The translations under genes and the position numbers were made by a program. From Bacillota bacterium (GTDB taxonomy: Bacteria > Bacillota > Clostridia > Christensenellales > QALW01), in assembly GCA_029007865.1 (NCBI GenBank), contig JAQXIQ010000148.1:1-45922 (forward strand): a stretch of DNA of 45,922 nt, read 5' to 3'. This document shows, in pieces, positions 9,058-28,025 of the stretch. Within the stretch, counting starts at the first letter, position 1; every line of letters begins with the position of its first letter. The notes beneath the pieces were generated by a model. The model saw only the letters and a program-made list of their open reading frames with translations. It ran no database searches and was not told the DNA's origin.

Positions 9058-9189
9058 GCCCTTGCCTGATCCATTGCCGGGAATCTACAGGTTATATAAG
9101 AAACCTCACAGATAATACTTTTGGGTCTTGACTTTATATTCGCTAACGCTTACAATAGCTGCGTATTACAAAAGTCGGCACAGCCGTTT

Positions 9190-10075: not shown

Positions 10076-12100
10076 TCACTGTTTTTTTACGGTATCTATA
10101 TAAACGCAGGCGGGAGAACCGCACATACCGTCCGCCGATAGGCGCACATACAGTTCCGCCCCATGAAGCTCTCCGTATGCGGTTACGGTAAGCGGAATAA
10201 CCTTTTCCTCACCCGGTGCCAGTACCACCGCATCAGCGACGGAAACGGAAATCCCCTCCGGCGCATTTATATCCGGATGCGCGCAGACCGTTTGCGAAGT
10301 GAAATTGCAGCATCCGAGCATGATTTCGGTGCTCCGGCCGCTTTCCAGCCGGTAACCCGTAGTGATGAGCTCTCCCTCGCCCTTTTTCGGGTCGGGAAAG
10401 AACGGAAATGTATCGGGCGGAAACACCGGTCTGACAAAAAGCCGGCACGGCAGAGGCAAGCTATGTGCGCAGGCGCGCCGCACCTTGGCGGCGTCACGGT
10501 TATAAAGCTGCTTTGGAATGCGGTTAAAGTGCACGAAGACCGGAGCCGCGCCTATATTGATGCTGAGTCCGTCCCTCCCGGGGCAAAGACATTTTTCTCC
10601 GCCGTTCATATCTGCCACAACTACAGGAAGCCGCACCGGAAGCTGCACGCTCACCGGCTCGTCGTTCCAGAGCATAAGCACCTCGTCCCCGCCGGTATCG
10701 AAGGCCACTCCCCTGACAGGGAGGGTTGTGCTTCCCAGAGCCTCTCCCTTTCCAAGCTGCGCGCATACCGCGCAAAGCGATATAAACGCCGGAAGCGGCT
10801 CATGCCCGGAGGTAAACATTCCGAACTCGGCATTGCACTCGCCGTACGCCGGGAGCATGAAGTGAAAGGTTCTCTCCACGCCGCAGAACGGGACAAGCGC
10901 CGACGCAGCGGACAGGTAAGCGGCATGCTGATACCATTGCGTCATCCTGTCATAGCCATCCGGATTTGTGATTATCGTGCCTGTCTCGGTAAGCCATGCC
11001 GCTTTGCCGCCCCATTTTTCGGCATTAAGCATGTGCTCTGACAGCACCGGCATATCCGGGGCGGGCACAGAATCTTTATCCGGGAAAACATAAGTGTGGA
11101 AATTGTACGCATCCGTATAATCCATTACGCCGTTTTTCATCATCCACGGCCCGTAAACGGAAAATTCCGGCGCGCGCGCATAGGCACCCGGCAATATCAG
11201 GGCCTCTGTACCGCTGTCCTTAAGCCCTATGGCAAAGGCCTTCATAAAGGCTGCGTATTCATCCGGCGTACCGCAGGAGAAATGGGTGACATCCTGCTCG
11301 TTCCATATCTCCCAGGCATCCACCGCTCCATCAAAATGCCTGCCTATTTCCCGGGCAAAGCTCCTGACGGCGCTCATGGAACTTACCGCAAGTCCGTCGC
11401 GGCAGCACAGCGCGGCGGGAATATCATGAAAGCAGACGGTAATTTTTATTCCCTCCGCTTTAATATAAGAAAAGGCTTCGTCGTAGTTCTCAAAAAGGTA
11501 TTGTATCCCGTCGTTATATATATCCGAAAGCCTTATTCTCTCCCTTGCCCACTTGACGCCCGACAGTCCAAGCAACCGCGCATAATCCCTCCTGTTTTCC
11601 GATTTTACATGCCATGCGGAGGCATGGTCTACGGCAAAGGGGCTGTCCGCCACTGCACATCTGTCCGTTTTGGCAACTATGCCGAAAAAGCAGCTTAGCG
11701 CATTGCCTTTTATAAAGACCTTACACTCATAATGCCCGGGGCCCATGCCGCATTGAGAAAAATCCAGCCGGAAGCAGTTACAGTCTCTGCTTATCTCCAG
11801 CCTTCCCTTGAATATTTCTCCGCTCAGGGTGTTTTTAATTCCGTATCTGATTTTGCCGTCGTTTACAGGCGCGGTAATGACGAAAACTAACGGTTCGCCC
11901 TCCGAAAATACCGACATATTTGCACAACTGCGCATCCCAAGCACCGCATTGGGCAGATGCTCCTGGTACAGCTTAGGCATGGGAACGCTTATGGGGCGCT
12001 CCTGCACGCTCATTATATTAGCTGCGCCGCTTGGGGCATCCGCCTCCTGCCGCGGTCTGTCTTTGTGCAGGGATACGGGATCAAAACCGCTGTATGACAT
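10076..12100 (-). CDS. Cytoplasmic clan GH-A glycoside hydrolase (GH39-like)
   Basis: The 674-residue protein has a central TIM barrel of the clan GH-A type, which acts by a retaining mechanism. The acid/base glutamate is E268 in DAWEIWNEQD, and the likely nucleophile is E372 in AAWLTETGT, at the strand 4 and 7 positions typical of the clan. An N-terminal beta-rich region (about 50-150) and a C-terminal beta-sandwich (about 480-670) flank it. The motif context is closest to GH39 or related beta-xylosidase-like families, but I cannot assign the substrate. There is no signal peptide, so the enzyme is cytoplasmic. GGAGG precedes the ATG. It lies just downstream of, and on the same strand as, the transporter operon, separated by a terminator, which suggests it works on the imported sugar. 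Confidence 0.8.
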   Translation of the reverse strand: MSYSGFDPVSLHKDRPRQEADAPSGAANIMSVQERPISVPMPKLYQEHLPNAVLGMRSCANMSVFSEGEPLVFVITAPVNDGKIRYGIKNTLSGEIFKGRLEISRDCNCFRLDFSQCGMGPGHYECKVFIKGNALSCFFGIVAKTDRCAVADSPFAVDHASAWHVKSENRRDYARLLGLSGVKWARERIRLSDIYNDGIQYLFENYDEAFSYIKAEGIKITVCFHDIPAALCCRDGLAVSSMSAVRSFAREIGRHFDGAVDAWEIWNEQDVTHFSCGTPDEYAAFMKAFAIGLKDSGTEALILPGAYARAPEFSVYGPWMMKNGVMDYTDAYNFHTYVFPDKDSVPAPDMPVLSEHMLNAEKWGGKAAWLTETGTIITNPDGYDRMTQWYQHAAYLSAASALVPFCGVERTFHFMLPAYGECNAEFGMFTSGHEPLPAFISLCAVCAQLGKGEALGSTTLPVRGVAFDTGGDEVLMLWNDEPVSVQLPVRLPVVVADMNGGEKCLCPGRDGLSINIGAAPVFVHFNRIPKQLYNRDAAKVRRACAHSLPLPCRLFVRPVFPPDTFPFFPDPKKGEGELITTGYRLESGRSTEIMLGCCNFTSQTVCAHPDINAPEGISVSVADAVVLAPGEEKVIPLTVTAYGELHGAELYVRLSADGMCGSPACVYIDTVKKQ

Positions 12101-12407: not shown

Positions 12408-12437
12408 AAAACGCCGCGCATGCAGCGCGGCGTTTTT
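12408..12437 (-). terminator. Terminator of the transporter operon
   Basis: AAAACGCCGCGC (12408-12419) pairs perfectly with GCGCGGCGTTTT (12425-12436), 18 bp after the last permease gene. On the minus strand a T-run follows. Confidence 0.92.
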
Positions 12438-12454: not shown

Positions 12455-13507
12455 TTAGCCCACCATACCGGAACGCTCAATTGACTGAACGAAGAACCTC
12501 TGGCAGAACACATACAGCACAACCAAGGGCAGTATGTGCATTATCAGCAGGGCTGCGTTATATACCTCGGTCAGAATAGAGTTGTTATCATAACCCAAAA
12601 CCTTCTGCACATAACCTGTAGCAGCGCTTGTTATCTTCATGGACAAAACATCTGCCTGCGGGTACAGTATGGAGAGATACGTCGTATCATTGTACTGCCA
12701 TACAAAGGCAAAGAGGAATACCGTGACCATTATGGGCAATGCACTGGGCAGCATTATCTGCCAGAAGGTGCGGAACGTGCCTGCACCGTCTATATAGGCA
12801 GCTTCCTCCAGCTCTTTGGGCTGATTGCGGAAATACTGACGCAGCATGAATATAAACAGTCCGTTTTTGAACATTACGCAGGTGGCGCTCATGATGATCA
12901 TGATGCTCCAGCCGGTAAGCTTTATTCCTCCGCCGCTCCTGGTGTTGAACATATCCGGAGTTATTGAAAACATCGTCAAAGGATTAAAGTTTGAAAAACG
13001 CATCTTCATGGCATCGGATATAAGCTGAATAGGCACCACAAGGGTGGCGATTACCAGGAAGAATACAAGGCCGTTACCCTTGAAACGGAACCTGGCAAGG
13101 CCGTAAGCCACCAGCGTACACGACGCCATCTGCAGCAGTCCCAGTCCCAAAGAGGACAGTACGGAACCCATAAACAGCTTGGGATACTTTACATAATTCC
13201 ACATGGCGGTGTAGTTTTCCAGCGTCAGACTTCTGGGAATAAAGATAACCGTCTGATCGTAAACGTCCTGAGCCGTTTTAAGCGAAGTGGAGAGCTGCAC
13301 GAGCAGAGGATACAGGATAAGCCAGCACAGTCCTATAAGCAGAACCCCTCTGATTATCCCCCAGATAACGCCCCTGGTCTTTTTTGACTTGAAGAACGCT
13401 TTTACCGCGGCCCAGCCCTTGAGCTTAATTACCTGAAAGGCATCTACCTCTTCGGCGCCGACCTGATTGACCTTTTTTTCAACCTTCTTTTTACTGAAAA
13501 GCCCCAT
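12455..13507 (-). CDS. Carbohydrate ABC permease, MalG type (second pair)
   Basis: This inner-membrane subunit of an ABC sugar importer has about 350 residues. I start it at 13507 (MGLFSKKKVEKK), where AGGAGG sits upstream; the longer frame to 13555 has no such site. A charged cytoplasmic N-terminus of about 50 residues precedes six membrane helices. The EAA loop that contacts the ATPase is visible as EAAYIDGAGTFRTFWQIMLP near residue 245. The protein ends in the VQSIERSGMVG tail typical of MalG-like permeases. It is the last gene of the operon, 4 nt after the partner permease. Confidence 0.93.
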   Translation of the reverse strand: MGLFSKKKVEKKVNQVGAEEVDAFQVIKLKGWAAVKAFFKSKKTRGVIWGIIRGVLLIGLCWLILYPLLVQLSTSLKTAQDVYDQTVIFIPRSLTLENYTAMWNYVKYPKLFMGSVLSSLGLGLLQMASCTLVAYGLARFRFKGNGLVFFLVIATLVVPIQLISDAMKMRFSNFNPLTMFSITPDMFNTRSGGGIKLTGWSIMIIMSATCVMFKNGLFIFMLRQYFRNQPKELEEAAYIDGAGTFRTFWQIMLPSALPIMVTVFLFAFVWQYNDTTYLSILYPQADVLSMKITSAATGYVQKVLGYDNNSILTEVYNAALLIMHILPLVVLYVFCQRFFVQSIERSGMVG

Positions 13508-13511
13508 GTTC

Positions 13512-14741
13512 TCACCTCCTGCTCTTCTTAACGACTTCGTTTTCGTTATAGACAAACCTTGATATTATGGCTGCCACTATCACTATCAGCAATGCAGAGA
13601 CAAGGAAGTACAGCCAGCCCATTGCCATGCGTTCGGAAAGGCTGATGGACGTATTGCTTGCCGAATTGAACAAATAGCTTATCATCGGGTTGTTGGAACC
13701 TGTAAAAACATCGATCATGGTATACATTGTGGCAACCAGTATCATAGGCGATACCATGGGGAAGGTGATCTTCCAGAAAGCTTCCCACTTTGTGGCGCCC
13801 TCCATGTCCGAAGCCTCAAACAGAGAGGGAGATATGGTCTGCAGCGCAGCAAGGAAAATAAGTATCTGCACGCCGGAAAACAGAACTATGTTGGAAAGCT
13901 CGTTAAACGCGCCGGTAACAAAATCCACGAACGGGCTCATAAACTCTATTTCCGATAGAATGTTCTTTATTGATTCCACCATGTCAAGGTCGGTACCGCT
14001 CATGGCACCCGAAACACTGGAGCCGAATCTTGCAACCTCCCAGCTGCCTTCCTTTATCCTGGAAGCCACACCCGTAGCGGTTACAACAGGCATGAAGAAT
14101 ATAACTCTTGCAACAACTCTGCCGCGGAATTTGCTGTTAAGCACATTGGCTATCAGGAAGCTGAATACAAGTATCGCCGGTATATAGATAAGTCTGGGCA
14201 GGGTATTCTGCACGGCGGTAATATAATCACGCTTTTCGGTACATACGGTTTTGTAATTATCCAGTCCCACATAATTCAGCGTATCGCGGGTCTCTATGCT
14301 GGTCACGACCTTGCGCTGGCCGTTTTCCATTTCATAGATGACATTGCCGGAGGCGTCATAAGTTTTCTCGCCGGCATTGTTGAGTTTAAGCACCCAATAC
14401 TCCGGATTTGCGATCAGTCTTTCCGGCTCTCCGTCTTCTTTGTCGGCCGTCTGCATTACATATATCTTATTGCCCTCGGAATCGGTTTTGGGCTGGCCGT
14501 TTTCGTCCAGCTCCAAAACATAGCATTTTTCGCTGGGCTTTGCCGGGTTTACATATTCATACTGAGGCAAAAGCTCCGTGCACTGCGCCGTGCCCTGACT
14601 GTAGATACTGAGCATAAAAGATGTATACAGCGGAGAAAGAACAAAGAACAGGAAGCCCAGAAGAAACGGCAACACGAACAGCCATCCCGACAGGGAACGC
14701 TTTGTCATCAGATCCAGACCTTTTTTGCGCGGTTTGTACAT
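13512..14741 (-). CDS. Carbohydrate ABC permease, MalF/UgpA type, with large external insertion
   Basis: The 409-residue permease has the MalF-type fold with an EAA loop (EASDMEGATKWEAFWKITFP). It is about 100 residues longer than its counterpart at 20984-21934. The extra length is an insertion at about residues 50-150, between the first and second helices, which puts it outside the membrane. It contains two imperfect copies of a 23-residue unit (74-96 and 116-138; shared core V-L-x-L, then G-N-x-I-Y-x-M). The start is 3 nt after the stop of the DUF5696 lipoprotein gene. In MalF the second periplasmic loop contacts the binding protein; by analogy this insertion could dock the lipoprotein. Confidence 0.93.
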   Translation of the reverse strand: MYKPRKKGLDLMTKRSLSGWLFVLPFLLGFLFFVLSPLYTSFMLSIYSQGTAQCTELLPQYEYVNPAKPSEKCYVLELDENGQPKTDSEGNKIYVMQTADKEDGEPERLIANPEYWVLKLNNAGEKTYDASGNVIYEMENGQRKVVTSIETRDTLNYVGLDNYKTVCTEKRDYITAVQNTLPRLIYIPAILVFSFLIANVLNSKFRGRVVARVIFFMPVVTATGVASRIKEGSWEVARFGSSVSGAMSGTDLDMVESIKNILSEIEFMSPFVDFVTGAFNELSNIVLFSGVQILIFLAALQTISPSLFEASDMEGATKWEAFWKITFPMVSPMILVATMYTMIDVFTGSNNPMISYLFNSASNTSISLSERMAMGWLYFLVSALLIVIVAAIISRFVYNENEVVKKSRR

Positions 14742-14744
14742 TTA

Positions 14745-17528
14745 TCAGACCCCCTTAATAACGAGGTAGTCCCTTGCCGGAACAGTATATCCGTCTATTG
14801 AAACGGAAACCTCATCGTAATTGACATACACGATTGTGCCGTCGCTGTACTGCGTGCTGGTAAGAGTCTGGCTTATATTGTCATGCTTGACCATCGTCAA
14901 AGAAGCAGTATGCCCCAGCTCCTCATTGTAGCGGTTATAGAACTTTATGGCGTCATCTATCCATGCCGAATAATTTACCGAATATACATCCTCAAAATAC
15001 ACGTTGTTAATGTCCTTATTGGGAGCATACATCCAACGGTAAGCAATCCCGGCGCCGTACTCGACCGCCTTGAGCATACTTGTTGTGCTGTCACCGGACT
15101 GGTTGATGAACTCACCGGAATACTGTATGTAGCCATGGATAACAAGCTGATAGAACGGAACCGTTTCATCGGCCATATAGAATTCCGAACTCTGATTGGG
15201 CAGCTCGTATATAACATCGGTGCCGGCCAGAGTATACATATTGCCGCCAACCGTAGCTATGCTCACTCCGGCGTCGGAGAACATACCGTAAATATCGGTA
15301 TAAATCTGCTGAACCTCATTACGGTCCACAAGCGCGCCGACATGATAATCCCCGGTAAGCATATTGCCTATGGCTCCCAGCGAAACAGCGCTTATCTTGT
15401 TGCTCTGAAGGTTTTTAAGCAGGCTTTCCGAAACCGACTGAACCTTCTGAGGCTTGGTGATAAATGCCTGGTGCATATAATACTTGGTCTGCATCAGATT
15501 GTACTGATAATACATCGCATTGGAACGGGACAGCATACGCGACGCATCCAGGAATTTCATATAGTCATCAAACAGCTTATCGGTATAAACCAGAAGCACT
15601 TCGCATTCGGGATAGAGCGCTATTCCGTTATCCTGGGCATACTGCTGCAGGTCGCGGTAATCGCCCCAGCCTCCCAGCTCATTAAGCGGTCTGACGGAGC
15701 TGTATACCTGGTTGAGCAGTCCGTTATTGGACCAGCCTCTGTAGCGGACATTGATACCCTTGACACCGCTTTCGGTAAGTTTCTTAAGTATCTCCTGCGC
15801 CTCGTTGTAGGTTGTAAGGCTGTTCAGATAATCGTACTGAATGCCCATAAAGGCGCCGGTATCCGACATCGCCCCGAGCAGCTCCAGGTTAAAGTTAATG
15901 TCGTTTCCGGAGATCTGCCTGTCTTTGAGCAGGCCTTTACTTATCAGATACTCTCTGTAATAAGCCGCCATATCGGCATAATCGAGATCGCCGGGTAATA
16001 TTGTGTACTTAATGGCGATATCGCCGGAATACTTTTTCTCCTGATAGGTCTTAAGAGTGCTGCTTGCACCGAAAAGCGCCATATCGTCAAATTCCGAGAG
16101 ACGGTAGGAAGAATAAGTATAATTCAGGGTGTTGTTCTGTCCTCTGGGAACATCGCTGACGACGCTTGCAACCGCCTCGCCGTCCTCAATGATGGAAAAC
16201 AGCGTACTGTTCTGCTTCTTTATAGCCCATATCGGCAGGTATCCCTGCTCGGAATACTCCGGCTGAGTGGAATAGTCCTTGCCGCGGTCTATGCCGTATA
16301 TCTGAACCTTTAACGGATCGCTTATAGCTATCTTGCCGTTGTTGAAGTTTATCAGCGCTCCGCTTCCGTCGGGAGTAAGCATATAGCCTTTTTCCTGCTG
16401 GTCGGCGCTGCCGAAATACTTGAGCACATCCAGGTATGCAATGCAGTATTTGCTCTCATTGAACATTATCTCGTCATTCTTGATGCACACCTTAAGGCCG
16501 TCTTCCTCAAGAATATAATCAAGAGGAATCATAAACAGGTTGGTGCTGACATCAGCAACATCGTATTCGGAATGCCAGTAGTCGCGAAGCGCCACCATAT
16601 CCGGGAAATCCGGATACTCATCCTTATGGCCCTGGTAATCGTAGCCGAACTGTTCTCCGCCCTCATACCACATCGTAAAGACATTCTTGAACATATTTCC
16701 GTTAACGTCTTTAAGGCTTTGTATGAGAACCGCGACTTCTTCGCCTTCTTCAAGATTTTTCAGCTTGGGAGATATTTTATCGTACTCTTCCTTGGCGGTA
16801 TCGGTTAATTTGTCGTAAGTATCCTTGGTAAAGATCTTGTAAGCGTTTTTGATGGCTGCATAGTTTACGTTATACAGCACGCCCCATTTATCTTTTTTCT
16901 CATCATTGGACAAGCCGTTCAGTTCGTTGTTGTAAAAGGTTGTGGCAAGCTCCAGCATCTCGTCAAAAACCTGCTTGGGCATTATGGTGGGTATTTTGTA
17001 ATCGGTCTGGAAATTTCCGATTACATATTTGACCCTGAGGCCGCCCTCGTCATTATAGGTCAGGTAAAAAGGCATTATTTTGGAGCCCTGCTCGACCGCC
17101 TTTTCATACATTAGGATGCAGTTTGTATAGCTGTTCAGATCCATCTGACTGGAAGAGGTTTTATCGTTATACCTGATCTGTATCTGGCTCATCATTTCGC
17201 CGGCTTTTCCGCTGGCGTCTATAACGCTCTGCGTCGGATTGGAAAACCAGGTTTCTCCGCTGGCCTTGTGAACCAACACTATATCCAGCCGCTGTTTGTT
17301 CAGGTACAGCTCGTAAGAGCTGTTTTCCTGCACAAGATAGTAATCGACGGTGCTGCCGTTGCCCATATCCCGGTGATAAATAATGTCCTCGCTGAGCTTG
17401 TACTCCTCAAGACCGGTATATTTGTCCTCGGGAATGAACCACTCTTCAACGGCCTTTTGTACACAACCGGAGAACATACTCAGCGCCATAAGCAGAACAA
17501 GGGCAATAACCGTAAGTTTTTTTGTCAT
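14745..17528 (-). CDS. DUF5696-type surface lipoprotein
   Basis: This 927-residue lipoprotein starts MTKKLTVIALVLLMALSMF and has a lipobox-like SGC with Cys22 as the lipidation site. From memory it matches proteins annotated DUF5696 in Paenibacillus and Clostridia. The N-terminal half looks beta-rich, with a helical insertion at about 165-270 (DKLTDTAKEEYDKISPKLK). The second half has the alternating strand-helix pattern of a TIM barrel, with strand ends GINVRYRGWSNNG and ALYPECEVLLVY, then SIATVGGNMYTLAG. A beta-rich C-terminus ends in DYLVIKGV. I infer a glycosidase-like or glycan-binding role, since GH101-like enzymes share this order. Catalytic residues are not established. It sits between YIP1 and the second permease pair. 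Confidence 0.8.
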   Translation of the reverse strand: MTKKLTVIALVLLMALSMFSGCVQKAVEEWFIPEDKYTGLEEYKLSEDIIYHRDMGNGSTVDYYLVQENSSYELYLNKQRLDIVLVHKASGETWFSNPTQSVIDASGKAGEMMSQIQIRYNDKTSSSQMDLNSYTNCILMYEKAVEQGSKIMPFYLTYNDEGGLRVKYVIGNFQTDYKIPTIMPKQVFDEMLELATTFYNNELNGLSNDEKKDKWGVLYNVNYAAIKNAYKIFTKDTYDKLTDTAKEEYDKISPKLKNLEEGEEVAVLIQSLKDVNGNMFKNVFTMWYEGGEQFGYDYQGHKDEYPDFPDMVALRDYWHSEYDVADVSTNLFMIPLDYILEEDGLKVCIKNDEIMFNESKYCIAYLDVLKYFGSADQQEKGYMLTPDGSGALINFNNGKIAISDPLKVQIYGIDRGKDYSTQPEYSEQGYLPIWAIKKQNSTLFSIIEDGEAVASVVSDVPRGQNNTLNYTYSSYRLSEFDDMALFGASSTLKTYQEKKYSGDIAIKYTILPGDLDYADMAAYYREYLISKGLLKDRQISGNDINFNLELLGAMSDTGAFMGIQYDYLNSLTTYNEAQEILKKLTESGVKGINVRYRGWSNNGLLNQVYSSVRPLNELGGWGDYRDLQQYAQDNGIALYPECEVLLVYTDKLFDDYMKFLDASRMLSRSNAMYYQYNLMQTKYYMHQAFITKPQKVQSVSESLLKNLQSNKISAVSLGAIGNMLTGDYHVGALVDRNEVQQIYTDIYGMFSDAGVSIATVGGNMYTLAGTDVIYELPNQSSEFYMADETVPFYQLVIHGYIQYSGEFINQSGDSTTSMLKAVEYGAGIAYRWMYAPNKDINNVYFEDVYSVNYSAWIDDAIKFYNRYNEELGHTASLTMVKHDNISQTLTSTQYSDGTIVYVNYDEVSVSIDGYTVPARDYLVIKGV

Positions 17529-17543
17529 CTCATTTCCCTCCTG

Positions 17544-18197
17544 TTAATAACGCATGGTAACTTCCCGATATATTGTATAAACAACGCCGAATATCTGCTG
17601 CAGCAGGAAGAAAAACAGCATGCCTATAAACATTATCAGTGCCATACCCAATGCAATGCATATAATGGCAAATATTGTTCCTATTGCTCCGTACTGATGG
17701 GTTACCATCGTGCCGCAGTACAGCAGCAAGCCGGTCCAGAAAATACCCAGGAAATTAAGGAATGTAAATATCGTGCCCTCGTCCACCGTCATGAACTGTG
17801 AAAGAACGGTCAGCGCCAGGGTGAAGATAATGTACGGCATCAGAGAATAGGCCGTATAATGGAATATATCCTTAACACTTCCTTCGCCGTTAAACAGCGT
17901 GGTTATACCCCAGTTTGAATAGCACCACAGCAGCACTATCAGTATGAACACTCCGGCGTCACTGAAAACGTTGATGTTCTCCGGCCGCACGGCAAATGTA
18001 TTGAACGAATAGGCTGCAAACTGCTTGAAAATAAGCCCCGCAATTACAAACAATATATAAAGTGTAACGGATACCGCCATGCGGGCCTTTTTATCGTGCT
18101 TGAGCTCCCAGAAGCCCTTGAAGGGATGCAGCATGCAATAAAAGACATATCTGAAATCACTGAAATATTGCTTCAGCGCGGCTTTCACCTTACTCAT
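17544..18197 (-). CDS. YIP1-family membrane protein
   Basis: The 217-residue protein has five predicted membrane helices after a soluble N-terminus (YVFYCMLHPFKGFWELKHDK). The FxxxxHPFKGFWELK opening and the helix order fit the bacterial YIP1 family, whose members sit in the membrane and often neighbour transport genes; no activity is known. Its start overlaps the end of the NHL/TPR gene by 8 bp, so the two are likely co-translated. A GAGG-type site lies within the upstream gene. The DUF5696 gene follows after 15 bp. Confidence 0.8.
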   Translation of the reverse strand: MSKVKAALKQYFSDFRYVFYCMLHPFKGFWELKHDKKARMAVSVTLYILFVIAGLIFKQFAAYSFNTFAVRPENINVFSDAGVFILIVLLWCYSNWGITTLFNGEGSVKDIFHYTAYSLMPYIIFTLALTVLSQFMTVDEGTIFTFLNFLGIFWTGLLLYCGTMVTHQYGAIGTIFAIICIALGMALIMFIGMLFFFLLQQIFGVVYTIYREVTMRY

Positions 18198-20106
18198 CGC
18201 CTTTACCTCCAGTCTTTATAAAGCGTCTGATCTTTTTGAATATCGCCTTGCCTACAAAGAACACAACCAGTACCACAATGCCGGTCATTATATAAGGCAT
18301 TGCCACTTCCATGCGTTCATTGCGAAGCTTTGCATACGCCTCGGCATATTCGCTCTGATTATAAGCGCGCATAAAGTTCTCGCACGCCGACTCGTATTCT
18401 CCGCGGACATACTGAATTCTTCCGATCCCGGTATAAGCCAGTCTGGAATTGGACGCCTGATCCAGTACCTGTTCCCAGAGTCTTACCGCCTCGTCATACT
18501 CTCTGTTCTGCTGACACATCGTAGCGCGGCGTATGAGCTTACCGTATTCGGTAGGCTTGAACAACGTTATACGCGCCGTTTTGGAATCCAGTACGGCAAT
18601 GATCATCTGCGTGTAGGTTTCCGCCTCTTCATCGTCCGGAGCTATAATACCGTCCTCCACGGCGGCAAAAGTCAGGATGTTGATTGCGGCCGGTTCGGCA
18701 AAAGCGCCCTCTGCGCTTCCCTTGGCTCCGAATATAAAGAGCAGTTCGCCGGAGTTATTATAAGTAAATATCCTGCCCTTCTCGCTATCAAGGGCGCTGT
18801 AGATTCCGTCGGACGCAACCGCAATGTCCACCATTTTGGAGAACTCGCTGCGCTCCTGGTAATAACCGAGGTCGCCGGACGGCGGATACACGTCATTACG
18901 CACGAGGATATCCGAGCCGGTAGGAGCGATTCTTTTTATTGCCGCACCTATCTCGGACTTGCTGTTGAAGTGGCTGAACAGATCAGCCGCTTCCAGCGCA
19001 TTTATTGTACCGAATATCATTCCGTCAGCGTCCAGGCAAACATTGCTGTATTCCGTTGAAAGATTCAGCTTGGAGCCTGCTTTCTGCTCATCGGTCAGTA
19101 TCCTGCGCAGCAGTGTCGAGAGTGTCTGCTTAACCTTTGTAGCGCCTGTAAACTTTGTGAACGAGCCGTCGGAGCTAAGCTCGATAAGGCCCTTATGGTT
19201 TCCCTTGGAAACGACATACATGGTGCCTCCGTCCGAAACAACCACCTTTATGGGCTTATACTTTCCGCCGGTGGTGTTGTCTCCAGAAGTGTTGCCTTCA
19301 CCGGTTTCGCCCCCTTCGGTTTCGCCTTCGCCGGACTCACCTTCGCCTGCCTCGCCCTCCTGCTCCGTATCGGAACCGTTGTCGGCGTCAGCGGACTGGT
19401 CGGTATCGCCCGTATTATTCTGATCCGTGTCGGTATCTCCGGAAGGCTCATCTGTAGCACCGGGATCTGTTACTGTTGCGTTTTCGTCCTCTGCATTGAG
19501 CAATTCATCCAGCCCCGCAGGCTTGTTGAAGATCATATCGCAGGCATACTGGCCGGACTCGTCCAGGGTAAACCTTACGATACGTCCGTTGCCGGTATCG
19601 CAGACATAGAGCTGGCCGGCATTGTTGAATGTCAAGCCCTCCGGGCTTGAAAGACGGTATCTCTGACCGTTATACATAAACCCGGTTATGTCTGTAGTTT
19701 CCTGGGTATACTGAAGATTGCCGTTTTCGTCAAGCAAGGGCTCGCCGTTCTCGTCCACCACCAACACCGTTTTTACGGATTCCATTTTGGTGGAAATGTA
19801 TTGCTTGAGCTGGTACTTCTTGTCGATAATAATTATGCGGCTGTTTCCGGTATCCGCTATGGCAATATCTCCGTTGACCGTGGATGCTGCCATATCAGAC
19901 GGATTGAGCATGCCCTGGCTGTTCTCCCCCGTCTGGACGCCCATTGTAACGGCGTCGATTATTTTATACGGAGTATAAGCCTGCGGCTCGGCGGTGACCC
20001 AACCCTTATTGAAATTGTAGTTCTGGTACGGGGCCGCGAATGCAGTTGCGGTAAACATGCAGCATATAAGCGCAATCGCAACTCCGGTCAATAACTTTTT
20101 AATCAT
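18190..20106 (-). CDS. NHL-propeller/TPR membrane protein
   Basis: The 638-residue protein has a signal peptide (1-25, cleaved near AFAAP). It then has NHL-type propeller repeats: LNPSDMAASTVNGDIAIADTGNSRI near 67-91, LSSPEGLTFNNAGQLYVCDTGNGRI near 152-175, and a later one around 430-470. An acidic, low-complexity linker of about 70 residues (D, E, G, T, N) splits the propeller near 210-285. After it come TPR-like helices (YDEAVRLWEQVLDQA, GEYESACENFMRAY), one membrane helix (YIMTGIVVLVVFFVGKAIF) and a basic cytoplasmic tail. Propeller plus TPR suggests an extracytoplasmic scaffold for protein or glycan contact. A GGAGG site precedes the ATG. Confidence 0.85.
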   Translation of the reverse strand: MIKKLLTGVAIALICCMFTATAFAAPYQNYNFNKGWVTAEPQAYTPYKIIDAVTMGVQTGENSQGMLNPSDMAASTVNGDIAIADTGNSRIIIIDKKYQLKQYISTKMESVKTVLVVDENGEPLLDENGNLQYTQETTDITGFMYNGQRYRLSSPEGLTFNNAGQLYVCDTGNGRIVRFTLDESGQYACDMIFNKPAGLDELLNAEDENATVTDPGATDEPSGDTDTDQNNTGDTDQSADADNGSDTEQEGEAGEGESGEGETEGGETGEGNTSGDNTTGGKYKPIKVVVSDGGTMYVVSKGNHKGLIELSSDGSFTKFTGATKVKQTLSTLLRRILTDEQKAGSKLNLSTEYSNVCLDADGMIFGTINALEAADLFSHFNSKSEIGAAIKRIAPTGSDILVRNDVYPPSGDLGYYQERSEFSKMVDIAVASDGIYSALDSEKGRIFTYNNSGELLFIFGAKGSAEGAFAEPAAINILTFAAVEDGIIAPDDEEAETYTQMIIAVLDSKTARITLFKPTEYGKLIRRATMCQQNREYDEAVRLWEQVLDQASNSRLAYTGIGRIQYVRGEYESACENFMRAYNQSEYAEAYAKLRNERMEVAMPYIMTGIVVLVVFFVGKAIFKKIRRFIKTGGKGDE

Positions 20107-20123
20107 TTTATCCGCTTGCCTCC

Positions 20124-20981
20124 TTAATCCTTCATTCCCGAGGTAGCCATGGTCTCGATAATGTTGCTCTGCGAAATGACGAACATTATTATCGGAACCG
20201 ACATCATAACCACTGTTACGGCGTTACCCACGCCTGCACGCGCTATGCCGACAGATATGATCTGCTGCAGCGCGTAGGACAGAGTCTTAAGGCTCTCGGA
20301 CTGAATATAGATGGATGCACCCATATTCCACAGTCCCTGTACGGCGAATATCATAAGTGTAAGCCATGCGCTTTTGATATTGGGCATTACTATGGACCAG
20401 AATACTCTGAGATGACTTGCGCCGTCAACCCGTGCGGCTTCCACAACTGCCATCGGTATCTGGGTCATAAAGCTTCTGATAAGGTGCAGGCCCAGTGCCG
20501 AAGCAAAGACGGGAACTATAAGTGCCCACTGGCTGTCGACAAAGCCCAAGGAAGACATTATCATATATGACGGTATCCACAGCACCGCTCCGTTGAACAT
20601 AAGAGCAAGCTCTATCATCTTTGTGATGAAGCGGTTTCCGGGGAAGCGATGCAGCGCCAGCGCAAAAGCGCACAGCGAGCAGCATATTATCTGGCCTATT
20701 GTACCGACGCCGGTAATGAATATGGTATTGAAGAAATACCGGGTAAACGGCACCCATGAGGTATTCATCAGCACGAACAGGTCGGAGTAATTCTTTGTGG
20801 TCCAGTTCTGCGGGAAGATTGTAGGCGGAAACCTGAACAGCTCATCTGTAGGTTTGAAGGAGCTGCCTATTGCAAAAAGCATGGGCAGAACCATAAACGC
20901 GCCGATCAGAACAAGGAACAGCACGGTGGCGATGTCGCCGCCCAGCGAACGGTTGACTTTTTTCTTTCTTATACGAGCCAT
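20124..20981 (-). CDS. Carbohydrate ABC permease, MalG type (first pair)
   Basis: The 285-residue permease has six helices and the EAA loop EAARVDGASHLRVFWSIVMP near residue 190. Compared with the other MalG-type subunit here (12455-13507) it lacks the long charged N-terminal extension. The start lies 2 nt after the stop of its partner, so the two are translationally coupled. It forms the first permease pair together with 20984-21934. Confidence 0.94.
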   Translation of the reverse strand: MARIRKKKVNRSLGGDIATVLFLVLIGAFMVLPMLFAIGSSFKPTDELFRFPPTIFPQNWTTKNYSDLFVLMNTSWVPFTRYFFNTIFITGVGTIGQIICCSLCAFALALHRFPGNRFITKMIELALMFNGAVLWIPSYMIMSSLGFVDSQWALIVPVFASALGLHLIRSFMTQIPMAVVEAARVDGASHLRVFWSIVMPNIKSAWLTLMIFAVQGLWNMGASIYIQSESLKTLSYALQQIISVGIARAGVGNAVTVVMMSVPIIMFVISQSNIIETMATSGMKD

Positions 20982-20983
20982 TA

Positions 20984-21934
20984 TCAGTCACCCACCTTGC
21001 TTATGATCTTTTGTGCCAGCTTATTGCACACTATCATCAGGAAGAACAGCAGCGTAGCCAGCGCACAGGCATAGCCCATTTCCATACGGGATCCGCCGTA
21101 ATCCTGGATATGCAGGATAAGTGTATGCGCTACATAGTCCTGCGTGGGATAACCCGCAAGCGCCGTTATCTGATCGCCGACCGAGAAAGCGCCGGTAATA
21201 CTCATTATTGCGCTGAAGAGCATCTGAGGACGCATATACGGAAGGGTGACGTACCAAAGCTCCTGCCAACGGTTTTTAACGCCGTCCAGCGCAGCAGCCT
21301 CATACAGCGTTTTGTCAACATTCTGCAAACCTGCGATAAATGTAAGGAAGGATACGCCCAGCGACGACCATAGCATCACTATGATCACGCACGGGACTAT
21401 ATAAGTCGTGTCCTCCAGCCAACGTATGTTCTGCGTTATCAGCCCCAGCTTGAGCAGGTTACCGTTTAAGTAGCCGTACGTATCGGATGAGAATATCAGC
21501 TTCCACACGACGTATACGTTAGCCAGCGTCGGCGCGTAGTATATCAGCGTCATAAGCGCCCTTACTTTGGGCGACAGCTCGTTGATCAGCCATGCAAAGA
21601 ACAGAGAAAGAATATATCCGCCCGGCCCCAGTATCACGGCAAAGAGCATGGTATTCTTTAAGGCGGTCATGAACAGATCGTCCGCAATAAACATTCTGGT
21701 GTAGTTATCCCAGAAAATAAACTTGGGAGCCTCCAGAATATTGAAGTATGTAAAGCCGTAGTATATTGCGGTTATGACCGGCAAAACCGTCAGAGTAATA
21801 AACACCAGCATAAACGGCAGCATGAATAAATACAGAATTTTGTTCTTCCATGCTTCCTTAAGCTTGGTTTTCATATAGTGCCCAAGAAAGCTCTGCTGCT
21901 TGGGCGCTGACTGTGCCTGCATTTCGTTTGTCAT
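20984..21934 (-). CDS. Carbohydrate ABC permease, MalF/UgpA type (first pair)
   Basis: The 316-residue permease is of normal length, with a cytoplasmic lead, six membrane helices and the EAA loop EAAALDGVKNRWQELWYVTLP. It follows the binding-protein gene after 12 nt and shares a GGAGG-type ribosome binding site region with it. The local order binding protein, MalF type, MalG type is the standard one for CUT1 importers. No ATPase gene is present in the window; CUT1 systems often share an MsmK-type ATPase encoded elsewhere. Confidence 0.95.
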   Translation of the reverse strand: MTNEMQAQSAPKQQSFLGHYMKTKLKEAWKNKILYLFMLPFMLVFITLTVLPVITAIYYGFTYFNILEAPKFIFWDNYTRMFIADDLFMTALKNTMLFAVILGPGGYILSLFFAWLINELSPKVRALMTLIYYAPTLANVYVVWKLIFSSDTYGYLNGNLLKLGLITQNIRWLEDTTYIVPCVIIVMLWSSLGVSFLTFIAGLQNVDKTLYEAAALDGVKNRWQELWYVTLPYMRPQMLFSAIMSITGAFSVGDQITALAGYPTQDYVAHTLILHIQDYGGSRMEMGYACALATLLFFLMIVCNKLAQKIISKVGD

Positions 21935-21946
21935 CCTCTTCCCTCC

Positions 21947-24900
21947 TTACCACAAATCCTTGTTATCAAGTTTATCTTTAAACTCGTCTCTCTTACGGGC
22001 AATCTCATCGTTAACGATCTTGGAATACTCAAGCAGCACAAGGTTGCTGTCGGAGTTTGTATTGATAACTTCCTTCCATGCGAACTCGACATTCCTGCCC
22101 ATATAATAGGAGCCGGGAACTTCGGGAATTCCTACAACATAATTCCATTGATCCTTGATGGCTTCAAGCGATTTTTTGTCCCACGGAAGCTGCTCCACGG
22201 CGGCCATATTGGCTGTCTGGTAACGCGCCGCGCTGCCCAGCAAGCTCTCTATCTCGCGCCCGAACAGAGCCTGAGCCTCCGTTCCCGTCCACCAAGCCAT
22301 AAACCTCCAGGCATTTTCCCTGTTTTTGCAGGTGGACATCATAATGCAGGCGGTAACGCTTCCGGCTGTGGAGTAATCAATGGTACCGTCCTCTTTAACG
22401 GTGCCGGGAACCTTCTTGAACTCCCACAGGCCGTCTATTTCGGGAGCGAAGACGCTCAGCAGATTGTATGAGCTGTATCCCGCTATGGACACCGGGATCT
22501 CACCGGAACGGAAGCGGTTTGCAAAGTCATAGGAGTTGGGCAGACGGTTAACGGTAAAGAGGTTGGTCCACATCTTGAAGGCGTCCAGCGCCTCATCGGA
22601 ATCAAGATTTCCGGTTATTCCGTCATATTCGTACTCATCGCTCATTTTATAGATGGTACCGCCGCGCTGATAGAGCAGGGTGGCATACAGATTCAGCGTT
22701 CCGCCCACAACACCCAGTGCCGGGACCGGCATACCGAAGTTCATGCTCTTGTTCTGCAGCAGCGGGAGCAACTTGTAAATATCGTCCCAGGTATTAAGCT
22801 GGGTATCCGGATCCACGCCAAGCTCCTCAAGAATATCCGTTCTGTAATAAAGCATGGGGAAATCCTGCGTTTCCGGGAGTCCGTATACGCCGGTACGGAA
22901 GCGAAGCGGGGTAAGCGCGCTCTCATGGAACTGAGCAAAGACTTCGTCCCGTCCCTCGAAAGACTCATCGTTGAGGTTTACCACCGCGCCGCGCAGCGCA
23001 TAGTTAACCGCGTCGCTGGAGCCTCTGGTAAGGCAGACATCGGGGCCGTTGCCCGCAAGGGTCGCAGGCAGCAGCGCGCCGGAAGCCACCAGCTTGAGGT
23101 TTATGGCTATATTATACTGAACGGTAAAGCGAGAGTCTATGATCTGCTTAAGAACATTGGCGTTATCGCGGTTGCCGGCGTTTCCCGCGCCCGTCTCAAC
23201 CCAAACATTTACCGGCTCCTCGTCCCCTTCAACGGTAACGGAGCCGATGGTGTCATAATCCTCTGTAAAGGATGCAATAAAGGAGGAAATCTCATGCCAC
23301 AGCCTATCAAAGAAGCCGGCATCGCCTGCCGGAAGCTCACGCTCCGGAGCGCAGATGATAATATAATCCATCTGAAGCGGCTGCTCACGCATATCGTTGA
23401 TCCAGGTGCCAAGAGCGGCGATATTGTCTTTAAGGTCGGCGAAGCGCTCCTTGAGGGTATCCATCCTTCTTTCGATATCGTCCAGGATGAGTATCAGCTT
23501 TCTGATGATGCTTGACTGCTCGTTTGCCTTGCCGTCATAGGCATCCTTGACCTGCTGCTCAATATCCTTGAGGTTTTCGTTCTCCTGACGGAATATGCTA
23601 AGTGCCTCGGTGGCCACCTTATCAAACTGGTAATCGCGGTTAATATCAGGATCGGCACCGGTGAGCATCAGTATCTGGCGATAAGCGACATTGAGCTGAG
23701 AAAGGCTCTGCTCCGCCTGTCTGAGCGTATCGCTCAGGTCACCCAGGGTCACATCAAGGCGCAGCGTGTGTACGCCCTTGTCAAAATAGAACATCATGTA
23801 TTCGCTGCCGTCGTTACCGGCACCTACCGCATACATCTTGTAACCGGTGGAATAACCGAACTTGAGATCCTGAGTCTCGCTGCACACCTCTTTGCCGTCA
23901 AGAAGCATGCGTCTGTGAGCGTTTGCACCGCCCACAACATTCTGCTTTGCCTTAAAGGCTATCTTATAGAGTCCGGCCTCTTTGACCTCAAAAGACCACT
24001 CCATCCAGGAGCCGACATTCTGCCACTTGTCGCCGCCTATGGAGTTAAGGCGGATCTTGCTGGCATGGTAAGGCTCCATGCTGGGGGTGGAACGGTCGCC
24101 TATGGCATAAAGCGTCGGGTCGCTTTTATCGGAAGGATCCTCTGCCTGGATCTTTATAAACGTATCGTCGTTATCCTGTACGGGCGCATATCCTTTGGCC
24201 TCATATTCTTCCTGCAGCTGGCTGTAGGATTTGACCTCGTCCCTCTGATATATAACAACCTGAGATATGGCAAAGCTTTCGCTGATGGGCGAAAAGGCTA
24301 TTATATGCTCTCCCTTTGTAAGATAGAAGGAAAGCGGCTCGGAATAATATCCGAGATAATCCCGGAGCTCTCCGACCTGCCATGCTTCCTTCTCTATCTG
24401 GAAGGGTCTGAGGTCGTTATTGGTTTTTTCGTCGCGCTGAACGGGGGTCTCATTTTTCCACTGACGGGAAAACTGAACCTGCCTTGCGTCATAAAACGGC
24501 AGCTGTCCGTCAATATATACAGCTCTGGAGACAGACGACCCCTTGGATGTATATTCAATGACGCTGCTGCCGGTTTCCACCTTAAAGCTGGTAAAGTTAT
24601 AATAGTTTACCCGCACATTATACAGCCCGTCCTGAGGAACGGTGACCTTCCATGCGATAATTTTATCGTCTGAGGAGAGCACCGCCTCAATTCCGCCGAA
24701 GTTGCCCGTAGGCATCTTTTCGTCGCTTATGCTGAAATCCGAGTTAAGCACCAGATGCTCGTCATAAGGCAGGACGATATTCACATCCGGACGTGCCGCC
24801 CCGGCATACTGCGCCAGATATTCATTATATTCTTTATGATCCGCTTTGTTAACGGTGCCGGTGCTGCCGGTATCGGTATTACCGGTCTGCTCCTCGTTTT

Positions 24901-25018
24901 CGATGCCGGTACCCCCGGAGCCTGTGTTGTCTCCGTCGGCAAAGGCACTGAGTCCAAGCATCGATACGGCCATGAAGACAGTAAGCAGTGCTGCCAGCAG
25001 CTTTTTCCCGATAGCCAT
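21947..25018 (-). CDS. Very large solute-binding protein with carbohydrate-binding-like N-terminal domains
   Basis: About 1023 residues, more than twice the usual size of a CUT1 binding protein. The start at 25018 (MAIGKKLLAALLTVFMAVSML) has a GGAGGG site; the longer frame to 25135 crosses an operator and lacks one. It has a signal peptide without a lipobox cysteine, then a Gly/Thr/Asn/Glu linker. Two beta-rich modules follow; the second (from FIKIQAEDPSDK, about 270-400) has the look of a CBM6/CBM35-type domain (VGSWMEWSFEVKEAGLYKIAFKA). A helical stretch of about 150 residues (ERRMDTLKERFADLKDNIAAL) leads to a family 1 solute-binding domain at about 610-1000. How it is held at the cell is unclear, as there is neither lipobox nor C-terminal helix. 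It is first in the operon. Confidence 0.9.
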   Translation of the reverse strand: MAIGKKLLAALLTVFMAVSMLGLSAFADGDNTGSGGTGIENEEQTGNTDTGSTGTVNKADHKEYNEYLAQYAGAARPDVNIVLPYDEHLVLNSDFSISDEKMPTGNFGGIEAVLSSDDKIIAWKVTVPQDGLYNVRVNYYNFTSFKVETGSSVIEYTSKGSSVSRAVYIDGQLPFYDARQVQFSRQWKNETPVQRDEKTNNDLRPFQIEKEAWQVGELRDYLGYYSEPLSFYLTKGEHIIAFSPISESFAISQVVIYQRDEVKSYSQLQEEYEAKGYAPVQDNDDTFIKIQAEDPSDKSDPTLYAIGDRSTPSMEPYHASKIRLNSIGGDKWQNVGSWMEWSFEVKEAGLYKIAFKAKQNVVGGANAHRRMLLDGKEVCSETQDLKFGYSTGYKMYAVGAGNDGSEYMMFYFDKGVHTLRLDVTLGDLSDTLRQAEQSLSQLNVAYRQILMLTGADPDINRDYQFDKVATEALSIFRQENENLKDIEQQVKDAYDGKANEQSSIIRKLILILDDIERRMDTLKERFADLKDNIAALGTWINDMREQPLQMDYIIICAPERELPAGDAGFFDRLWHEISSFIASFTEDYDTIGSVTVEGDEEPVNVWVETGAGNAGNRDNANVLKQIIDSRFTVQYNIAINLKLVASGALLPATLAGNGPDVCLTRGSSDAVNYALRGAVVNLNDESFEGRDEVFAQFHESALTPLRFRTGVYGLPETQDFPMLYYRTDILEELGVDPDTQLNTWDDIYKLLPLLQNKSMNFGMPVPALGVVGGTLNLYATLLYQRGGTIYKMSDEYEYDGITGNLDSDEALDAFKMWTNLFTVNRLPNSYDFANRFRSGEIPVSIAGYSSYNLLSVFAPEIDGLWEFKKVPGTVKEDGTIDYSTAGSVTACIMMSTCKNRENAWRFMAWWTGTEAQALFGREIESLLGSAARYQTANMAAVEQLPWDKKSLEAIKDQWNYVVGIPEVPGSYYMGRNVEFAWKEVINTNSDSNLVLLEYSKIVNDEIARKRDEFKDKLDNKDLW

Positions 25019-25161: not shown

Positions 25162-25191
25162 ATCATAATTCATTTACCCCCTGAATGTCAA
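25162..25191 (-). promoter_or_regulatory. Sigma-A promoter of the transporter operon
   Basis: On the minus strand: TTGACA, 18 nt, TATGAT. It lies about 145 nt before the binding-protein start, and the two palindromes lie on either side of it. Confidence 0.7.
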
Positions 25192-25504: not shown

Positions 25505-25583
25505 AAAGATATGCACCGGAAGCTCAACGCATGTCCGGTACAAATAAACATCTGAAAGCTCCCGACGGGACACGGTGCAACCA

Positions 25584-28025
25584 ATGACAAAACCCTTATA
25601 TAACGATTTCGGATACACTTGGTGGAAAAACGGCTACACGGGCAGCGACCGCACTCTGTACACCCGCACCAGGCTTTTCGGCGCGGCATTAAGATGCGAC
25701 AGGGGAACAATTGAGCATTTCGGTGCAATAGTCTCTCAAACCGACGAAGACTGCAGCGAAATAGACTGCCTGCCGCCCCTTGAGGTGCTTCCGGTTATCC
25801 GCAAAGACGGAGTGGAGCATTCGCTTGCCGGAATAGAGCCCACCGAAACTTACAGTTCTCCCTTCGGCCAGAGTGCCGAGGCCGGCGTATTTAACCGCAT
25901 ACTGGAAAGCGGACGCATAGTGCAGCGGAATGACCTGATGTTTTACCGCTTTGACGGTACCGACATCGGCGGAAGAATGGAGCTTGCCCTTTTCCCGGAG
26001 CACTGTGCGCTTTCCTTTGAGCTCTTTTCCCCCTGCGACTGTACGGTCAGGCTGACTCTGTCCCTGCGCCGCCCCGGAGCGTCGGCGTGCGAAGGCTCGC
26101 TGATAACACGCAGCGGCGGCAAAACGCAGTATCTCCGCGCAAGCGGGCTGGAGCCATGCGGGGACAGCTTTGCCGTAAACTCCGTGCTGACTCTGAAAGC
26201 CGGTGTTTTCAACGGTATCACGGTTATTCTGCTGCCCTCCCTTGACGGACGCCCTCTGCCCGAAACCGGCATGGTGCAGGTTTCCGCGGAAACTCTTTCG
26301 CCGGAAAAAGGCATTTCCCGCCCCGTATCAAAAACTGCCGACGGTATAATAAACATATCGCAGGATAATATGTTTTCCTGCTTCGGGCAGGACTTTAACG
26401 ATGGGAACATATACACCTGCGACCGTATGCTGCTTACTCTTAAAAACCCATATCCTTATCCGGTGCGTCTCCCGGTACGCTTTGAAAAAAATCCGCCGCT
26501 GTCCATTACCGGGCTGTGTCCGATGCTGCTGGACGAAAACGGCGAGCCCACCGGCATTCCTGTTCAGCTTACGAAAAACTGGCATTACTTCCCCCTGCAG
26601 CAAAGCGAGGTGTCCGGGCATGCCTCCGCAATATCTCCCAAGCGTCATTTTGAAGGGCAGTGGTTCCACGGCTATACCGTTATCGATCTGCCTGCAGGCA
26701 GCGTTACCAGGCTTATATATGCCTGCAGCTTTGCCGCATGGGGCAAACTGTTTGCCGCCAGCCACGCTCAGCTCTGTCTTGCAGGCTGGGGCGGCGGACA
26801 GCAATGGGAGACCAGTGCCGTCGGCTCCTTCGGCGAATCCTTCTGCTATGATATAGCGCGTTCCTGGACCTGGTGCTGTATGGGGGATATCTGTCCGGGC
26901 TTTATATATTCGCGCCTGGAGGGCAGAAAATATGACTGGACAGGCAATATAGGAGGCGGGGACTTTCTGTTTTATATAAGCGGCGGCAGGAGAATCGGCT
27001 TTGCCGCCATGCGTACAGACTTCAGGTCGCAGGGGCCCTGTATGACGGAGGTCTGCTACCGCGGACGCACACAGGACGGCGCGGCGGAGGTCCGGATAGA
27101 GATATTCATGGGCCGCACAAACGATATAGTACACGCTCTGCACCGCTTTGAATACACCTTTGTGCGCGATGTGGAATACGAGCGCATGAGCTTTTATCAG
27201 ATGGGCTCGGACAGCTATAATTACGATTACTGGGATCATGCCTGCATCGGCTCGGAAGACGGGACTGTCAAAAAATACACCATCAAGGGAGAGGGGGAAA
27301 ACAAGGTAGACCTGCCCAAGGACGGCGAATGGGGCGACTATGTCGATTACGGCATAACCCGGCCCGGTATGTACTTCGGGCTATACGGCTGCGAAAGAGG
27401 CCATGCATACGGCGACAAGCTTATGCTCATACATCAGTACGACTCCGTTATAAACGGCGCGAGCCGACCTCCGGTCATGGCGGTACGCACCAGTAATGTT
27501 ATGAACCGCTGGCGCAGCGTTTTCCCGGAGCTTGTACCGCCGGAGCGCTCCGGAAGAATAGAAAAGGGAAGCCATATAAGCGGCTGCGTCGACTATATAT
27601 GCCTCCCCGCCTCAGCAGATGAGTATTACGGAGGCAGCTCCTTCATTAAGGACATTCCGCCCGAAATATTTGATACACCGGAAATATTTGCGCGCCTGAG
27701 CGCTGCCGGACGGATTGAGCTTACAGCGCAGACCGGAGAGGTAGAACGCTTATATCCGCCCCTTATCCGGGCCTGCGGAGATACGGCCGAGTTCACCCTG
27801 CGCGGAGGCTTTGCTTATACTCCGGTAAGTATTAGCGGGCTTTCCGAATACTGCGGCTTTGAATGCCTGCGCACGGAAAACGGCACTTGTATCCCCGTAG
27901 CCGCAGAACAGGAGGTATACGGCAACGATTTCTGGCAATGCCGCTTTGACGCCGAAAGCAATACATATATACTTACCTACAACCTTCCGCAGGGGCACTA
28001 TATTATAAGAAAAAGGCAGCACTGA
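25584..28025 (+). CDS. Large unrecognised protein of the carbohydrate locus
   Basis: I do not recognise this protein of about 813 residues. It has no signal peptide and no membrane helix, so it should be cytoplasmic. It is rich in aromatic residues and predicted beta strands, with clusters such as GYTWWKNGYTGSDRTLY near the start, WHYFPLQQSEVSG and FEGQWFHGYTVIDLP in the middle, and AGWGGGQQWETSAVGSFGES followed by FCYDIARSWTWCCMGDICPG. Such beta-rich, Trp-rich proteins next to sugar transporters are often glycoside hydrolases, lyases or epimerase-like enzymes; this is inference. ATG 25584 is the preferred start, with an in-frame GTG at 25575 as alternative. It is divergent from the transporter operon and may share its regulator. 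Confidence 0.75.
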   Translation: MTKPLYNDFGYTWWKNGYTGSDRTLYTRTRLFGAALRCDRGTIEHFGAIVSQTDEDCSEIDCLPPLEVLPVIRKDGVEHSLAGIEPTETYSSPFGQSAEAGVFNRILESGRIVQRNDLMFYRFDGTDIGGRMELALFPEHCALSFELFSPCDCTVRLTLSLRRPGASACEGSLITRSGGKTQYLRASGLEPCGDSFAVNSVLTLKAGVFNGITVILLPSLDGRPLPETGMVQVSAETLSPEKGISRPVSKTADGIINISQDNMFSCFGQDFNDGNIYTCDRMLLTLKNPYPYPVRLPVRFEKNPPLSITGLCPMLLDENGEPTGIPVQLTKNWHYFPLQQSEVSGHASAISPKRHFEGQWFHGYTVIDLPAGSVTRLIYACSFAAWGKLFAASHAQLCLAGWGGGQQWETSAVGSFGESFCYDIARSWTWCCMGDICPGFIYSRLEGRKYDWTGNIGGGDFLFYISGGRRIGFAAMRTDFRSQGPCMTEVCYRGRTQDGAAEVRIEIFMGRTNDIVHALHRFEYTFVRDVEYERMSFYQMGSDSYNYDYWDHACIGSEDGTVKKYTIKGEGENKVDLPKDGEWGDYVDYGITRPGMYFGLYGCERGHAYGDKLMLIHQYDSVINGASRPPVMAVRTSNVMNRWRSVFPELVPPERSGRIEKGSHISGCVDYICLPASADEYYGGSSFIKDIPPEIFDTPEIFARLSAAGRIELTAQTGEVERLYPPLIRACGDTAEFTLRGGFAYTPVSISGLSEYCGFECLRTENGTCIPVAAEQEVYGNDFWQCRFDAESNTYILTYNLPQGHYIIRKRQH

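Follow-up and report, generated by a model that had tools for sequence, protein, structure and literature searches.

How many importers does an operon encode when it holds two complete permease pairs, a single classical binding protein and no ATPase? This question is raised by a minus-strand operon in a window of 45,922 nucleotides (the whole stretch analysed, contig C148), which belongs to a 2.0-Mb clostridial MAG that is 92% complete. An earlier note, written from the letters of this DNA, described the operon as a glycan importer, either one large complex or two linked ones in which a DUF5696 lipoprotein stands in for a second receptor. We propose that the eight genes form a conserved CUT1-type glycan-uptake hub with interchangeable receptors and a shared MsmX-type ATPase, a reading to which we assign a probability of roughly one half.

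Layout and conservation of the cassette

The eight genes lie on the minus strand in the order that the earlier note gave, and no ATPase gene was found within the operon. They encode a giant solute-binding protein (SBP) of 1023 amino acids, counted from the ATG at 25018 (21947..25018); permease A of MalF/UgpA type (20984..21934); permease B of MalG/UgpE type (20124..20981); an NHL-propeller/TPR-like protein (18190..20106); a YIP1-family membrane protein (17544..18197); a DUF5696 lipoprotein (14745..17528); permease a of MalF type (13512..14741); and permease b of MalG type, with its start at the ATG at 13507 (12455..13507). None of these genes contains an internal stop, and each is preceded by a Shine-Dalgarno-like sequence. 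The reading of the operon as one transcription unit is borne out by short gaps between genes (12, 2, 17, -8, 15, 3 and 4 bp along the operon, the YIP1 gene overlapping the NHL gene by 8 bp), by a putative promoter-like site 5' of the operon (TTGACA-18-TATGAT, minus strand, 25162..25191; 11 of 12 matches in a consensus scan) and by a terminator-like hairpin 3' of permease b (minus strand, 12411..12428; a 7-pair stem and a T-run).

The gene that follows the hairpin has its own promoter-like site and belongs to the next transcription unit. Its 674-amino-acid product (minus strand, 10076..12100) has no Pfam match and matches the glycosidase PslG weakly (E 0.013); the motifs WNEQD and WLTETG, picked out by eye, mark it as a possible clan GH-A glycosidase. 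An HMM search found matches in two loci including the window, and a homologue lies 3' of the cassette in a sister species of the same genus. The source of that species (genome G001, contig L139) was sheep rectum.

Among 392 sampled Clostridia genomes, 96 contain DUF5696 at a score that exceeds the Pfam cut-off, and a scan of one public collection with an alignment of eight closer members found at least 529 stretches that encode its relatives. Loci were collected from the surroundings of strong DUF5696 matches, together with 80 further loci, many of them from Paenibacillus and Cohnella. A locus was counted as complete when it held the giant SBP, A, B, NHL (with YIP1 separate or not), DUF5696, a and b. 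Of the 163 loci from Clostridia and Bacilli in which the DUF5696 gene is long, 139 had every part, a count in which loci are not all independent because a few genomes occur in both locus sets; complete loci with distinct DUF5696 number 131. Inspection of the other 24 revealed contig edges, rearrangement or broken genes. For example, the gene order is rotated in L161 and one permease has moved in L089 and L090, all with the parts still together, while DUF5696 carries an insertion at L054 and reading frames are broken at L182 and L200. Because the same set recurs so often and the remaining loci are cut, rearranged or broken, chance grouping is excluded, and the eight-gene set is a real, conserved unit. 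Pairwise distances of seven cassette parts correlate at 0.87-0.95, which may in part reflect shared species history. The co-occurrence of the DUF5696, YIP1, NHL/TPR and permease genes, proposed earlier as a check, thus supports the claim that the accessory genes belong to the importer, and the similar gene strings that the note placed in Paenibacillus and Clostridia were indeed found among the sampled loci. Searches for publications about DUF5696, YIP1, NHL and importers with several SBPs also agreed with the note's impression that the cassette has no functional description: no paper naming DUF5696 or describing the cassette was found in the literature searched, which largely excludes subscription journals.

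Components of the cassette

Domains of the operon proteins were assigned with Pfam and NCBIfam. All four permeases contain BPD_transp_1 (Pfam, E 1e-9 to 2.5e-16), with NCBIfam matches for A (UgpA/PotB-like), B and b. A tree of 48 cassettes resolves the permeases into four separate clades (A, B, a and b), with one other permease inside the A clade, and column counts indicate that the EAA loops are intact in all four. The cassette therefore has the paired MalF/MalG-type permeases with EAA coupling loops that characterize CUT1 importers. Permease a of the window carries an insertion at residues 53-149, located after the first transmembrane (TM) segment and common to the sister species; other long copies of permease a that were inspected carry unrelated N-terminal extensions. 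The idea that a longer permease a marks loci lacking a local SBP was also rejected, the effect being weak (p 0.04, uncorrected).

A normal-size lipoprotein SBP adjoins the cassette as a ninth gene in 46 of 49 loci from Bacilli, where it is mostly upstream, and in 28 of 90 from Clostridia, where it is mostly downstream. A lipobox was recognized by a simple motif rule in 96 of 107 such small SBPs. No small SBP lies beside the cassette of the window, but across the two classes these counts show that a second classical receptor does exist, a correction to the earlier note. They also lend some weight to the strongest alternative, namely that two independent importers are merely co-transcribed, the giant SBP serving A/B and a small SBP serving a/b, with NHL/YIP1 and DUF5696 as distinct surface proteins belonging to that regulon and with no joint complex. 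In many loci, both permease pairs have an SBP of their own next to them, and with intact EAA loops either pair could work alone. However, the accessory genes sit between the pairs, the parts stay together after rearrangement, and none of the 163 loci has only one half of the cassette, except at contig edges and in broken copies. We therefore consider two separate importers a possible but somewhat unlikely explanation, and prefer a hub to which both pairs belong.

Two of the genes that lie between the pairs encode the NHL/TPR and YIP1 proteins. The NHL part of the first label holds (Pfam, E 3e-15), whereas the TPR matches, at 22.7 bits, fall below the Pfam cut-off of 27. According to a TM map, this protein has a signal peptide and a single TM segment near its C-terminus (601-619). 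Its neighbor matches Yip1 (Pfam, E 7e-14) and has about five hydrophobic segments. That these are two proteins, as the earlier note had it, is correct for the window, but they are fused into one in 44 of 139 complete loci.

SBP_bac_1 matches the giant SBP in its C-terminal part only (Pfam, E 2e-20), which leaves the operon with the single classical binding protein that had been claimed for it. An AlphaFold2 model (pLDDT 85) predicts that the extra half of this oversized protein consists of two beta-sandwich domains (about 64-257 and 288-424) and helices (428-544), followed by a MalE-like domain at about 600-1014. The latter (601-1016) best matches the beta-1,2-glucan SBP 5ysb (VIA Z 36.9, rmsd 2.6, 373 aligned), and so supplies the MalE-fold sugar-binding protein of a CUT1 system. 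The N-terminal half gave CBM35 and Golvesin_C matches at sub-threshold scores, and a sequence search found no solved structural relative for it. The window protein begins with a signal peptide without a lipobox; by the simple motif rule, a lipobox is present in 7 of 133 homologues, and in nearly all giant SBPs the N-terminus is hydrophobic and no further TM segment follows. Given that most lack both a lipobox and an additional TM segment, the giant SBPs may be held at the surface by partner proteins.

The remaining protein of the operon matches DUF5696 alone in Pfam (E 4e-167) and bears the lipobox MFSGC, a feature found in only 29 of 151 homologues. Among solved structures, a profile of 30 DUF5696 members detected ZgGH129 (E 1e-16) and NagBb (E 1e-6), and hhalign aligned DUF5696 with clostridial GH129, represented by four full-length sequences and one partial sequence, at E 7e-18. 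Consistent with this, the AlphaFold2 model (pLDDT 87, pTM 0.85) superimposed on 5opq_D with a VIA Z of 30.5 (rmsd 4.2, 587 aligned) and on 5wzn_A with a Z of 30.1, followed by GH101, GH36 and GH13 at Z 20 or less. DUF5696 thus has the GH129 fold and resembles the GH129 glycosidases (NagBb 5WZN; ZgGH129 5OPQ/8RZG) in overall structure and in detectable profile similarity, but it differs from them in being membrane-anchored at its start and in having no conserved catalytic pair. No match to PF11308 (Glyco_hydro_129) was found in the genome of the window at E 1e-3.

Residues D435 and E478 of NagBb, which we take to be the catalytic Asp and Glu, were located in the GH129 alignment and correspond to regions 716-721 and 753-770 of DUF5696. 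The window protein carries A719 and V760, and neither region contains an acidic residue; the protein thus lacks the Asp/Glu pair of GH129 at both canonical positions. In the sister species, the second candidate position is a glutamate and the first a lysine. One alternative explanation is that DUF5696 is an active glycosidase at the cell surface and trims glycans ahead of import, as its fold would allow; both candidate acids are found in 27 of 152 homologues, and position 719 is kept in all 52 Bacilli copies. This appears improbable in view of the window's own A719 and V760 and of the 45 Clostridia copies that lack both acids in a cassette otherwise fully conserved. With both acids in so few homologues, enzyme activity is thus unlikely to be the function conserved across the family, to judge from these residues, although some members may be active. 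Having lost both catalytic residues, the DUF5696 protein of the window is probably a glycan-binding surface protein that holds or presents glycan chains. The proposal that it acts as a second receptor in the classical sense is not supported, its fold being that of GH129 and not of a binding protein, but glycan binding is possible.

Receptors, ATPase and glycans

A search of the window's genome with an SBP alignment identified nine full-length genes of the small-SBP type that are not linked to the cassette, five of which were themselves in the query. Four are on contig C76, and C42, C43, C54, C110 and C115 each contain one. In the neighborhoods inspected, none of the unlinked SBPs is next to a permease of this type. 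The permease pairs typed outside the window are of the polyamine/Pot (C78), phosphate/Pst (C90) and oligopeptide/Opp (C84) types, with no other sugar permease pair among them; three further permeases, on C22, C141 and C7, are single ones outside this typing. The cassette therefore appears to be the only sugar importer open to at least nine further receptors encoded elsewhere in the genome, although a sugar permease may be absent from the assembly because the MAG is 92% complete. The genome also encodes one MalK-type ATPase (OB_MalK match), cut by the start of contig C100 and adjoining genes that read from sequence as nagB- and nagA-like. This match provides the available MalK/MsmX-type ATPase expected of a CUT1 system.

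SBPs of this type number ten in the sister species. Elsewhere in the family, G393 and G395 contain a single one each, and G394 contains a weak partial match besides one that is full-length; G393 and G394 each have other sugar-type permease pairs. Full-length SBP matches above 150 bits, a threshold chosen post hoc, were present in 9 of 12 genomes with the cassette versus 0 of 13 without it (Fisher p 1e-4, the genomes being related). Placing the unlinked and cassette-adjacent SBPs in one tree group was considered and dropped, as the SBP tree does not group them. Some SBPs of cassette-less genomes score equally high with the cassette-adjacent HMM. Because the tree does not tie the unlinked SBPs to the cassette, the hub reading rests on genome content.

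The neighbors of the cassette give some indication of what is imported. Downstream operon neighbors include GH26 (10 of 86 scanned) and GH30 (10), as well as GH10, GH38, GH5, GH95 and GH43, and GH113 is also found among the operon neighbors. The neighboring copies of GH26 and GH113 have no signal peptide, an indication that oligosaccharides of some size enter the cell and are then cleaved in the cytosol. The mixture of glycoside hydrolases points to different glycans in different hosts. Together with the MalF/MalG permeases with their EAA loops and the MalE-like domain, these neighbors support the earlier reading as a glycan importer. LacI-like, AraC-like and sensor-like genes, identified by sequence reading of cluster representatives, are also common neighbors and could suggest that sensing or surface assembly is the cassette's main task, with permease-like proteins that signal binding to regulators instead of transporting glycans, but this is very improbable given the ATPase-coupling EAA loops kept in all four permeases and the cytosolic glycosidases that accompany the cassette.

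Proposed mechanism and relation to known importers

Under the hub reading, we infer a physical assembly, an assignment of receptors to pairs, ligands, and roles for DUF5696 and the scaffold as follows. The two permease pairs, A/B and a/b, would sit in the membrane with a scaffold of NHL/TPR and YIP1, pictured as a propeller outside the cell that stands on a base in the membrane. The giant non-lipidated SBP, with its glycan-binding-like sandwiches and MalE domain, would most likely deliver to A/B, and normal-size lipoprotein SBPs would deliver to a/b, with one or more encoded locally in the majority of Bacilli and in roughly a third of the Clostridia sampled. In the genome of the window, the nine unlinked SBPs would fill this small-receptor role. 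DUF5696, the GH129-shaped surface protein, would probably hold or present glycan chains. Both pairs would be powered by a common MsmX-type ATPase whose gene lies elsewhere, and cytosolic glycosidases would cut the imported chains. A more far-reaching version, in which the eight products form one supercomplex with four permeases, and the enzyme-shaped holder and the propeller feed long glycans from at least ten interchangeable receptors into two coupled channels, is unlikely in our estimation.

CUT1 importers that share a multitask ATPase, MsmX or MsmK, are known (PMC7658222). The cassette resembles these in its MalF/MalG-type permeases with EAA loops, its MalE-like SBPs and an ATPase outside the operon, and differs from them in having two permease pairs of its own, a giant SBP built from two modules, and three conserved accessory genes (NHL/TPR, YIP1 and DUF5696). 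In Anaerocellum bescii, the cello-oligosaccharide importer Athe_0595-0598 has one permease pair and two SBPs and is powered by MsmK (PMC12838199). In the hub reading, too, a single sugar importer would be served by more than one SBP, but both SBPs of the Athe system are local and it has no accessory proteins, in contrast to the nine unlinked candidate SBPs in the window's genome. We regard the cassette as a real and conserved form of CUT1 importer that has apparently gone undescribed.

Should the hub reading be right, it would explain the orphan sugar-binding proteins in gut Clostridia and give a function to DUF5696 and to the NHL/YIP1 pair. Carbohydrate uptake in such genomes would be predictable from their receptors alone. 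The presence of the cassette in culturable species such as Paenibacillus makes these predictions testable.

Genes near the operon

Transcribed divergently from the glycan-importer operon is a plus-strand gene for an 816-aa protein (window 25575-28025), for which Pfam returned no matches and a sequence search for solved relatives found none. Also on the plus strand, at window 9121-10011, is a gene for a bacterial protein that matches TMEM164, a family known chiefly from animals.

Surroundings of the unlinked solute-binding proteins

Four of the unlinked solute-binding proteins (SBPs) are clustered on one contig of the same genome (C76; L235:2279-11674), adjoining a melibiase-like (GH36/GH31-type) protein. 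On another contig, C110 (L237:1007-6418), an unlinked SBP adjoins two NlpC/P60 proteins that carry SH3 and peptidoglycan-binding domains.

An interrupted DUF5696 gene and short matches to DUF5696

At one sampled locus (L054:5532-10926), a DUF5696 gene is split by approximately 2.7 kb of sequence that does not belong to it. Locus L049 and similar loci encode proteins of approximately 570 aa that match DUF5696 over its C-terminal two thirds only; these short proteins may represent a bridge between DUF5696 and glycoside hydrolase family GH129.
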